From Sinosporangium siamense (GTDB taxonomy: Bacteria > Actinomycetota > Actinomycetes > Streptosporangiales > Streptosporangiaceae), in assembly GCF_016863435.1 (NCBI RefSeq), contig NZ_BOOW01000028.1, forward strand, positions 1 to 64,000: a stretch of 64,000 nt of DNA, read 5' to 3'. The first letter of the stretch is position 1, and every line of letters begins with the position of its first letter. The notes under the pieces are model-generated. The model was not told the DNA's origin. It saw only the letters and a list, made by a program, of their open reading frames with translations, and did no database searches. This document shows positions 1,908 to 14,413 of this stretch, piece after piece. The translations under genes were made by a program, and so were the position numbers.

Positions 1908-3230
1908 CTATCCGGCCGCCGCCGAGAATGCCTGCCGTACATCGTCGGGGGAGTAGCTGAGTGCGGCGCCTGCGGGGGCGGCTTCCGTGACGTGCGGGAG
2001 GTGGACGACGATGTCATACGCGTCCAGCGGGCTCTGCTCGGAGTAGAAGGCGCCGACTCCCGCACGCTGCCGGGTGGCGGCTCGCACGGCGTCGGCGTCG
2101 GCCGGGGACAGGCGCCGCAGATCAGTCGCGAAGGGGCCGTCGTGGCTGGTGTGCATGAGGGCGTCGATGCTGCCTGGCTCGGGTGCTTCCATGTCCGTGA
2201 AGAGGGTGCCGGTGTAGAAATCGGTGCCGGTGTTGAGGGTCCGGCCGGTCCCCGCGGTCGTGCCGATGACGAGATAGTCATCCCCGAGCCGGTCGGCGAG
2301 GTGCATCCCCATCGGGGTCATCGGCTCCATACCGGGGAGGGTGCCCGGCCGGCGCTGGATGTGTCCGTTGTGGGCGGCCAGGACGATTCTGTGCTCTCTC
2401 CGCAGAATCCATTCGACCGTGTCGGCGATCGCCACGTCGCGGTTGTTCATCGCCGTCCACTGGTCGCCTCGGGTCACCGTACGGACGACGGTGTCGAGCG
2501 TGGCCGTGAGCCGCGCCGCGTGGAGCGCACGCTCGTAGTCCTCGACGGTGGTGTGCCGGAGGCAGTCCAGCCGGCGGCCCGCCATGCGCGCGGTGAGTTC
2601 GGCGAGACCCGCCGTCAGCGCGTCCTTGGCCTCGGTGGGCAGCTGAGTGTAGGCGGCCACGGCCGCGGGCGCGGAGAGCGCCGACGGCACCGCGAACGCC
2701 GAGACGGTCTCCCGGATGCGCGGATCGACCTCGAACCCAGGGTCGGCCCGCGCGAGGTAGGCGAGTACGGCGTCCAGGCCGGGCAGTGGCGACACATTCG
2801 AACCGCCCAGGTCGATGCCGTAGAAGCCGAGGGAACGCGCGGCGGTTTGGTTGTGCCGGCGCATCCACTCCAGGTGGGCGGCCATCTGCTCCCACAACCC
2901 CATCAGCGACGTGATGCCGTGAGCCATCACCTGTCCGAGCGGGGCGTCGCCGCCTCGGACCCAGGCGTCGGCCTGCCATCCTTCGGCGAATCCGGTCTCC
3001 ATCGCATAAGCGCTGAACCCATGACGCTCGGCCAGATAACGCAGCAGGCGGTGGCGGAGTTGGTAGAACTCACGGTTGTAGTGCGCGCTCTCTCCAATGG
3101 CCACCACACGGGCGTTTCCGATCGCCTCGTCCAGCCATCCGAGGTCGTCCAGCGGCGCAGCCGGGTCAAGCGTGCGCAGCGGGATGACCGCCTCGTCGCT
3201 GAGCCGTGCGATCTCGGTCGGCATATTCAT
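1908..3230 (-). CDS. Erythromycin esterase family protein
   Basis: A 440-residue member of the erythromycin-esterase superfamily (EreA/EreB, succinoglycan-biosynthesis-like esterases). The catalytic pattern is visible: GESAH at about residues 46-50, a Glu in METGF near 78, and a second His in AAHNGHIQ near 290. In Ere enzymes these residues activate water for macrolactone hydrolysis, but most chromosomal homologues have no proven macrolide activity, so resistance is only a possibility. ATG 3230 has GGAGGAA about 9 bp upstream. It is divergent from an ArsR-type regulator at 3292, likely its controller. No signal peptide is evident, so the product should be cytoplasmic. Confidence 0.85.
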   Translation of the reverse strand: MNMPTEIARLSDEAVIPLRTLDPAAPLDDLGWLDEAIGNARVVAIGESAHYNREFYQLRHRLLRYLAERHGFSAYAMETGFAEGWQADAWVRGGDAPLGQVMAHGITSLMGLWEQMAAHLEWMRRHNQTAARSLGFYGIDLGGSNVSPLPGLDAVLAYLARADPGFEVDPRIRETVSAFAVPSALSAPAAVAAYTQLPTEAKDALTAGLAELTARMAGRRLDCLRHTTVEDYERALHAARLTATLDTVVRTVTRGDQWTAMNNRDVAIADTVEWILRREHRIVLAAHNGHIQRRPGTLPGMEPMTPMGMHLADRLGDDYLVIGTTAGTGRTLNTGTDFYTGTLFTDMEAPEPGSIDALMHTSHDGPFATDLRRLSPADADAVRAATRQRAGVGAFYSEQSPLDAYDIVVHLPHVTEAAPAGAALSYSPDDVRQAFSAAAG

Positions 3231-3291
3231 GACCGCGTTCCTCCATTTGTCTCAGTTTTGGGAACAGTATCAGATGTGAGAACATTGGTTC

Positions 3292-11669: not shown

Positions 11670-11692
11670 GGCTGTGCCGTACGGCATGAGCC
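11670..11692. repeat. GGCT…GCCGTAC repeat, left copy flanking a tetR
   Basis: A 23-bp unit containing the perfect palindrome GCCGTACGGC. An almost identical copy (one mismatch) lies at 12445-12467, so the two flank the TetR gene at 11711-12301 as direct repeats. Confidence 0.6.
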
Positions 11693-12328: not shown

Positions 12329-12353
12329 TGACGTACATGTCACTCGATGACAT
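12329..12353. promoter_or_regulatory. Overlapping operator palindromes upstream of tetR
   Basis: ATGTCA-ctcga-TGACAT (12337-12353) is a perfect dyad and shares GTCA with a second dyad TGAC-N6-GTCA (12329-12342). They lie 28-52 bp upstream of the GTG start of the TetR on the minus strand. Confidence 0.6.
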
Positions 12354-12444
12354 ATGCTTTGCCGTACCGGCCACAGAAGGAGGCAACGGATGCGTGGCAA
12401 AACCGTTCCGGTGACGGGCAGCACCGGGGGACACCCTGAAAGTC

Positions 12445-12467
12445 GGCTGTGCCGTACGGCGTGAGCC
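12445..12467. repeat. GGCT…GCCGTAC repeat, right copy flanking a tetR
   Basis: Direct repeat of 11670-11692 with one base difference, again centred on GCCGTACGGC. It lies just upstream of the presumed promoter of the rsgA leader. A weaker relative (GCTTTGCCGTACCGG) sits at 12356-12370. Confidence 0.6.
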
Positions 12468-12538
12468 TGCTCTGCCGAGGTGCTATGGTTGCAGTCGTCA
12501 ACGTCGGACACGTGATTGAGAAAGGGAGGTGAGGTTGA

Positions 12539-12607
12539 ATGATCGCGGTGAAGACCGCTGCTCTGCGCAGCGCCCGGACTTTCCTCACGTCCCGGGCTCC
12601 GGTCTGA
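12539..12607 (+). CDS. Leader peptide upstream of rsgA, ending in an R-A-P motif
   Basis: A 22-codon frame with a strong ribosome site (AAAGGGAGGTGAGG) and ATG 12539, ending in …TFLTSRAPV and TGA. It is followed by 160 bp of competing hairpins and then the TTG start of rsgA, the arrangement of a translation-attenuation leader. The R-A-P-V end resembles the RAPP/RAPG arrest motifs described in actinobacterial and proteobacterial arrest peptides (ApdA, ApdP), which stall the ribosome at the peptidyl-transferase centre. That resemblance is short, so stalling is a hypothesis. A promoter-like TATGGT lies about 55 bp upstream. Confidence 0.55.
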   Translation: MIAVKTAALRSARTFLTSRAPV

Positions 12608-12626
12608 CCACTTCCGCCATCCTGTC

Positions 12627-12713
12627 GCGAGCCGTTCGCTCACGCCTGCCGTGAGCTGTTCGCCGATGTCGGCCGCCAGCCGCTTGTTCACGCTTGGCGA
12701 GCCGCCTGCTCGC
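12627..12713 (+). promoter_or_regulatory. Competing hairpins (putative attenuator) before rsgA
   Basis: Stem 1: GCTCACG (12638-12644) with CGTGAGC (12650-12656). Stem 2: GCGAGC (12697-12702) with GCTCGC (12708-12713). A further GCGAGC at 12627-12632 can pair either with the GCTC of stem 1 or with the GCTCGC of stem 2, so the structures are mutually exclusive. A ribosome stalled at the leader's end (12592-12607) would sit just upstream of these elements. Confidence 0.5.
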
Positions 12714-12767
12714 AGGACGGGTGACGCCTGAGTTCCGCCGGGGTCCCTTCCCGCAAGGTGTCTCACG

Positions 12768-13849
<1,082 letters not shown>

Positions 13850-13853
<4 letters not shown>

Positions 13854-14413
13854 ACGAAACCCGCCGCCACCACTCGACGACCACTGAAACGGACTCTCCC
13901 GCCATCATGGACTGGATCACCCGCTCCGAGACCGACGCCGACCACGCCCGGATCCGCGAGATCAACCTCGCCGCCTTCCCCACCTCGCACGAGGCGGACC
14001 TGGTCGAGGCTCTGCGCGCCGACCCCGCGGCCTGGCTGCCCGGTCTGTCGTGGCTGGCCCAGAGCGCTGACGGCACCCTCACCGGTTTCGCCCTGTTCAC
14101 CCGGTGCCACGTCGACGACGCCCCGGCCCTCGCGCTCGGCCCGTGCGCCGTCCTGCCCGAGGCACAGCGCCTCGGCGCCGGCGGGGCGGCCATCCGCGCC
14201 GGGCTTGAGGCGGCCCGGGAAATGGGGGAGAACCTGGTGCTGGTGCTCGGCCACGCCGAGTATTACCCGCGGTTCGGGTTCACGCCCGCCTCGGGCTTCG
14301 GCATCCGGCCGCCGTTTGAGGTCGAGGACCGCTACATGATGGCCCTCGCCCTCGACCCCACCCGTCCCGTTCCGAAGGGCGTCATCCGCTATCCGGCGGC
14401 CTTCGGAGTCTGA
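13850..14413 (+). CDS. GNAT-family N-acetyltransferase (YhbS-like)
   Basis: A 187-residue acetyltransferase. The acetyl-CoA site is visible as LALGPCAVLPEAQRLGAGGAAIRAGLEAA (Q/RxxGxG/A pattern) followed by VLGHAEYYPRFGFTPAS, which marks the YhbS/COG3153 group. GTG 13850 overlaps the rsgA stop, so it is translationally coupled to rsgA and falls under the same leader. Substrate unknown; pairing with a ribosome-assembly GTPase makes a translation-related or antibiotic-related substrate attractive but unproven. A long hairpin follows. Confidence 0.88.

Follow-up and report, generated by a model that had tools for sequence, protein, structure and literature searches.

Why is an rsgA paralog with a weak TTG start preceded by a short open reading frame that carries a strong ribosome-binding site of its own? 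The locus lies on a 64-kb stretch of Sinosporangium siamense DNA, referred to here as the window, and the leader, rsgA and GNAT features described below are on its plus strand. The leader ORF (12539–12607) starts with ATG, comprises 22 codons and reads MIAVKTAALRSARTFLTSRAPV-TGA; it is the sole ORF of 15–35 codons behind any of four 8-nt Shine-Dalgarno words on both strands of the 64 kb. Its ribosome-binding site GGGAGGTGAGG (element a, 12524–12534) is complementary to CCTCACGTCCC in codons 15–19 (element c, 12583–12593), a hairpin GCTGC-N5-GCAGC lies within codons 7–11 (element b, 12557–12571), and the 3' end of the leader, GGGCTCCGGTC (element d, 12594–12604), can pair across a linker (12608–12737) with CCGGGGTCCC (element f, 12738–12747). 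The last two bases of f also belong to the CCTT at 12746–12749, which as judged by eye can form a stem with AAGG of the rsgA ribosome-binding site (element g, 12755–12758). The rsgA paralog extends from its TTG at 12768 to 13853, and a GNAT acetyltransferase gene (Acetyltransf_1) with a GTG start extends from 13850 to 14413, overlapping the end of rsgA (stop codon 13851–13853) by 4 nt. An earlier sequence-only reading had pointed out the 22-codon ORF with its strong ribosome site and SRAPV-stop ending, the weak TTG start and the overlapping GNAT gene, and all of these are present. A putative -10 box of the leader transcript, TATGGT, was placed by eye at 12484–12489, and many relatives have, by eye, TGCTAGGCT-like boxes in a similar position. 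Further upstream, a 23-bp direct repeat (22 of 23 positions identical, GGCTGTGCCGTACGGC[A/G]TGAGCC) at 11670–11692 and 12445–12467 flanks a TetR-like gene.

The rsgA paralog was identified by its RsgA_GTPase domain (PF03193, E 1.4e-47; TIGR00157, 158.4 bits at a cut-off of 100) and by its position in a tree, in which three rsgA paralog groups stand together apart from canonical rsgA (branch length 3.06, support 100/100). The window genome holds two further rsgA copies with 50% and 38% identity. We consider it probable that the segment in front of the paralog serves as the 5' leader in a translational attenuator of this stress-type rsgA and the GNAT gene behind it; within that reading, which way the switch works, what induces it and what the products do are our proposals.

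We determined how widely the leader is shared among rsgA loci with at least 56.5% identity, which we define as the window clade. Loci came from named genomes (32 loci), from 297 genomes of the window's family (214 matching, 30 loci returned) and from 60 further matches; 99 clade loci were fetched, some of them from one organism fetched twice, leaving 85 distinct loci. A homologous leader of 21–26 codons precedes rsgA in all 99. Detection was by profile in 98, of which 53 had been used to build the profile and match by construction and three match weakly (L078, L096 and L106, E 0.04–0.1), and by eye in L080. The same profile found no leader in 25 fetched rsgA-like loci outside the clade (none above 4.5 bits) or, at E 0.01, in 30 canonical rsgA loci, two of which had shortened flanks. 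Carriers include Streptosporangium carneum, Rhizohabitans arisaemae, many Actinomadura, Micromonospora okii, Nocardiopsis flavescens, Dactylosporangium siamense and Nonomuraea gerenzanensis.

Leader lengths were compared in 104 loci, a set that drops the false positive L185 and includes 19 loci from elsewhere, among them an rsgA fragment (L174) and an rsgA locus (L186). Most leaders have 22 codons (82 loci), followed by 23 (12), 25 (6), 21 (2), 24 (1) and 26 (1), and every one of the 104 ends in TGA. Between the start codon and the d motif, length varies only in steps of three nucleotides, whereas the distance from the leader stop to the rsgA ribosome site falls into all three frames (29, 37 and 36 of 102 loci). 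This contrast is indirect evidence that fits translation of the leader, which had been picked as an ORF in the first place.

To judge from their sequences, the relatives share a predicted RNA plan of four helices, a:c, b, d:f and f:g. In a:c the ribosome site of the leader, GGGAGGUGAGG, is complementary to codons 15–19, CCUCACGUCCC; in register 76.8% of cells are paired, compared to at most 62.0% in slid registers. The duplex energy in 103 loci (one locus with too short an upstream region was left out) is -25.0 kcal/mol for a locus's own strands and -23.8 kcal/mol for permuted ones, with 0 of 1000 permutations as low, a test that like all our helix permutations takes no account of relatedness among loci. 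Only 74 of 103 loci pair better with their own partner than the row mean; both strands have changed in L022, L078 and L190. In hairpin b, 507 of 520 pair cells in 104 loci are canonical, and the next best register reaches 75.4%. Its stem occurs as GCTGC/GCAGC (59), ACCGC/GCGGT (9), GCCGC/GCGGC (7), GTTGC/GCAAC (1) and GTCGC/GCGAC (1), and in L051 a Ser codon has changed to Asn together with its pairing partner.

For d:f the duplex energy in 102 loci is -23.4 kcal/mol, compared to -21.4 kcal/mol for permuted strands (0 of 2000 as low) and -15.0 kcal/mol for composition-shuffled ones. A pair table of 98 loci, without L175, L181, L183 and L184 and without L015 and L026, which the finder of g missed, shows Watson-Crick pairs that vary on both sides at 11 positions in the duplexes predicted, with clear two-sided changes in L022, L068, L091, L098, L103 and L109. 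The mean pair count is barely above that of swapped strands (12.34 and 12.00), and runs of at least eight pairs occur in 59 of the 98 loci compared to 41.6% of swapped combinations. The fourth helix, f:g, in which f pairs with the rsgA ribosome site, is present in most loci, typically as CCCUU/AAGGG, and has only 4 bp in the window. An automated finder gave no stem for nine of 104 loci (L018, L021, L024, L093, L094, L181, L183, L184 and L187) and one for each of the other 95, a number that is not a count of f:g, since in at least a dozen loci, the window included, the stem chosen was not at the ribosome site. Because d:f and f:g share 2–3 nt (2 in the window), the two helices should compete, and their exclusion may be partial. 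MAFFT alignments of the Actinomadura-type and mixed groups gave no useful consensus information in RNAalifold.

The sequence-only reading had located the switch elsewhere, in mutually exclusive stem-loops built from GCGAGC (12627 and 12697) and GCTC (12638 and 12708). These elements are exact and the stems do form, but they are not conserved: they sit in an expansion of the linker that is absent from the Rhizohabitans locus L005 and others, and for this reason we rejected them as the switch. The window linker (12608–12737), with its expanded hairpins and GAGC/GCTC repeats, is about 70 nt longer than in L005, the closest relative with a name (160 versus 90 nt), and the linker varies among relatives. 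Comparison with relatives thus bore out the leader ORF and compensatory changes, the latter in b and d:f, but neither these stems nor the RAP ending of the peptide. What stands is a conserved leader with alternative pairings placed to control initiation at rsgA; the means that had been named for it are not supported.

Sister rsgA paralogs, those of Streptomyces included, carry other leader peptides on what their sequences suggest is a similar plan. The other stress-type copy of the window genome (L002 on contig C13, hence C13 type) and 14 of 15 relatives examined, the exception being L125, have a different leader, e.g. MRVFLVSLPSINPRVSL. In the C13-type clade (L002, L036, L111, L112, L114–L124) the peptide is unrelated to that of the window, with MRVxLxxxPSxxLRxxx in most, and the helix plan appears similar; by eye, these loci also have an AT-rich element in front of TTGCGN that recalls WhiB7-type promoters. 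With these other peptides, d:f in 15 C13-type loci, with the site in L036 picked by hand, reaches -21.1 compared to -18.3 for permuted strands, and none of 2000 permutations is as low. By eye, most of these loci show a stem at the ribosome site. In six (L111, L112, L114 and L117–L119) d:f is short and does not overlap the ribosome-site stem. A third type, MAVxAxGAARIQxxIxSTSVAxG, is found in one large genus of another family (f18 g85), which we infer to be Streptomyces, and is called f18 type here. Its pattern is present in 30 of 41 fetched loci and, by eye, also in L193, L217 and probably L228; absence from L203 is uninformative, as the match there begins inside the gene. A profile of this leader matched once each in 48 of 61 genomes, by coordinates directly upstream of an rsgA match in 47 of the 48 and in one genome (G657) that has no rsgA match at the threshold. 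Streptomyces sp. BHT-5-2 has an f18-type leader. For this type d:f is far better than shuffled (-24.2 versus -17.7), while its covariation lacks significance, with 374 of 2000 permutations scoring as low in 31 loci (L230 was excluded for want of a site). The Kribbella rsgA paralogs L027 and L030 have a similar small ORF, MSH[YL][PE]AYHRAVVSRSVRPLS, about 76 nt upstream of the rsgA match.

From this anatomy we propose how the switch may work. When the leader is translated through to its UGA, ribosomes would cover codons 15–22 and with them c and d; f could then fold onto the rsgA ribosome site, and with f:g closed and a weak TTG start rsgA would be translated poorly. If a ribosome stalls early, around the conserved Ala-Ala/Arg at codons 7–10, or if initiation on the leader fails, c and d would be free. 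Free d would pair with f and loosen f:g, and free c would shut the ribosome site of the leader itself, which would keep the switch ON. Output would rise when translation is impaired, e.g. by ribosome-targeting antibiotics. A feedback loop between translation stress and 30S assembly, as the sequence-only reading had suggested, would be conceivable.

A folding model was used to estimate the cost of opening the rsgA site. The median over all loci is 3.7 kcal/mol for naked RNA, 4.5–4.8 kcal/mol with a ribosome at codons 1–9, which is less open than the 3.9–4.0 kcal/mol at codons 11–14, and 5.8–6.0 kcal/mol with a ribosome from codon 16 to the stop. Ribosome position thus shifts site opening by a median of about 2 kcal/mol. 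In the Nonomuraea-like group a ribosome at codons 7–14 gives 5.3–5.5 kcal/mol and one at the stop 5.6 kcal/mol, with 3.7 kcal/mol for naked RNA. The window itself shows no useful difference, its predicted probability of an open site being 0.006 naked, 0.002–0.004 with a ribosome anywhere and 0.003 at the stop. The model supports, with a modest effect, an OFF state when the leader is fully translated and an ON state when it is stalled midway or untranslated. Since the effect is modest, almost vanishes in the Nonomuraea-like group when ribosomes stall and is missing in the window, the direction proposed here derives mainly from the anatomy, and our confidence in it is weakened by the values at early codons and by the C13-type loci without overlap.

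The peptide consensus from 28 typed examples is MAVVxxAAxRSxRxxLxSRAxG. It had been suggested that the nascent chain itself, ending in R-A-P, stalls the ribosome at the leader end and thereby controls rsgA, a mechanism to which we now give hardly any credence. SRAPV does close 31 of the 85 distinct clade leaders and FRAPG one more (L095), but the remaining 53 lack RAP, ending e.g. in SRASG, SRAAG, SRVPV, SRALV, SPGLG, SLVLG, SAGLS, FRASS or LRSRG. RAP is found in none of the listed f18- and C13-type leaders, and where it occurs in the 104 loci it is followed by Val in 33 of 34 cases. Arrest of the RAPP type depends on a fourth residue, directly after RAP, that is Pro or Gly and on a specific stretch of N-terminal sequence, according to the accessible portions of PMC12992588 and PMC7897499, so that the reading fails on its motif as well as on conservation. 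The C-terminal codons of the leader are better explained by RNA pairing, of c with the leader ribosome site and of d with f.

A stall elsewhere in the leader is the core of a classical erm-type attenuator, in which the naked RNA would be OFF with an upstream leader segment holding d, and a drug-specific, peptide-dependent stall at one codon, the conserved Ala-Ala-Arg, would free d for f. By eye, GCCCGG in codons 12–14 of the Nonomuraea-like group is complementary to CCGGGC at d, and with a ribosome at codon 8 the model predicts a short GGAC/GTCC stem in this stretch. Window-clade leaders frequently contain Ala-Ala and Arg/Cys, and f18-type leaders A-A-R-x-Q, even though some of the codons have changed synonymously in the latter. 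We nevertheless regard this mechanism as unlikely, for the GCCCGG segment is missing from many Actinomadura-type leaders, the naked RNA is the most open state in the model and the peptide varies widely. Coupling of leader translation to transcription attenuation, intrinsic or Rho-dependent, would have a precedent in the wblC/whiB7 uORFs, which operate in this way according to the available part of PMC11550727. No terminator-like site was found in 12350–12900 (0.3 expected by chance) and no U-run is seen by eye after the stems, which speaks against the intrinsic form, and the conserved distal strand pairs with a ribosome site; this alternative appears decidedly improbable, and given the lack of a terminator-like site in 12350–12900 the switch most likely acts on initiation. 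Still less probable, to the point of being remote, is a structured RNA (a riboswitch or protein-binding leader) in which the ORF would be incidental. RNA pairing fixes much of the leader sequence, as this would predict, but in-frame length changes only, a strong ribosome site and an invariant TGA argue for a translated leader, and no Rfam family matched at gathering score in the window.

The leader is not confined to rsgA. Of the 84 clade loci in which at least 550 nt were available downstream of rsgA, 67 have a GNAT homolog there, with spacings that range from matches overlapping by 3 nt to a distance of 869 nt. When 150 and 394 genomes were searched with the leader profile, strong matches appeared away from known rsgA loci, of which 20 were fetched: beyond the false, fragment and rsgA cases already named (L185, L174 and L186), the leader precedes a GNAT gene in L172 and L187 (by Pfam) and in L183 and L184 (by eye), and a SAM methyltransferase gene in L176 (by Pfam) and, by resemblance, in L173, L177–L179, L181, L189 and L191, with an apparently broken one in L188. 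A methyltransferase-GNAT fusion follows it in L190 (by Pfam) and L180 (by sequence), L182 begins alike, and L175 has no recognizable target downstream. In the L176 locus the methyltransferase (2485–3249, minus strand, MDLPRIFTIRES...) stands under the same leader type as in the window. At the methyltransferase loci a remnant of rsgA often lies in between, and such a decayed fragment in several loci suggests that one output has given way to another. Streptomyces sp. NBC_00842 has a 199-kb plasmid on which (L293, 2262–4824) the leader is followed by rsgA and then by a bifunctional methyltransferase/N-acetyltransferase gene, flanked by a Tn3 transposase on one side and by a hypothetical gene and then a recombinase on the other. 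The GNAT gene of S. clavuligerus has no such leader. As a tentative extension, for which we would claim less than even confidence, the leader may belong to a mobile, partly plasmid-borne cassette that senses generally impaired translation through completion of the leader and deploys a spare 30S-assembly GTPase, GNAT proteins and SAM methyltransferases, also as fusions. If so, its outputs would form an unrecognized group of ribosome-stress effectors and be novel factors that, once induced, confer tolerance or resistance to antibiotics acting on the ribosome.

The literature searched, from which subscription papers were mostly missing, contained no description of a leader ORF for rsgA and no account of why actinobacteria keep a second, divergent rsgA. 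A conserved switch that senses translation before this copy, and before acetyltransferase and methyltransferase genes as well, would suggest that the copies serve under translation stress. Among known systems, the erm attenuators of the ErmCL/ErmBL type share with the rsgA leader a short leader ORF, alternative helices and a target ribosome site that can be sequestered; in erm that site is sequestered until a ribosome stalls in the leader. The rsgA leader differs in its targets (an rsgA paralog, GNAT and methyltransferase genes), in having its own ribosome site pair with its own codons and in a naked RNA that looks more open than closed, and we know of no erm-like peptide in it. HflXr is reportedly induced by attenuation. 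It resembles the present case as a ribosome-associated GTPase paralog, tied to antibiotic resistance in the accessible text of PMC6310831; HflX, however, splits ribosomes, whereas RsgA acts in 30S assembly. The arrest peptides ApcA, ApdA and ApdP, of which ApcA and ApdA also occur in actinobacteria (available sections of PMC7897499 and PMC12992588), are likewise encoded upstream near their target genes and share a superficial R-A-P. In the rsgA leader Val follows RAP and the motif is not conserved, its 22 codons are too short for a membrane segment, and the target is not Sec or YidC.

Similar in logic is wblC/whiB7, where complete translation of the uORF represses and disturbed translation induces, as far as the accessible part of PMC11550727 states. 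Here too an actinobacterial uORF is proposed to keep its target OFF when translated; wblC/whiB7, however, acts through a Rho-independent terminator, while the rsgA leader has a sequesterable ribosome site. The rsgA paralog SCO6149 of S. coelicolor, itself a paralog of SCO5211, is listed among WblC-activated genes in the portion of PMC7157823 available. SCO6149 may be of the f18 type, and if it carries the leader this would add to an antibiotic-induced gene a second layer of control, one for which the literature searched gave no description. The WblC box GAAAWY (strict hexamer, 3 nt upstream of -35) was found in only 5 of 83 clade upstream regions and not in the window; by eye, C13-type loci come nearer to it than the clade. 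The rsgA leader is best read as uORF-controlled translational attenuation with an rsgA paralog, GNAT and methyltransferase genes as its targets.
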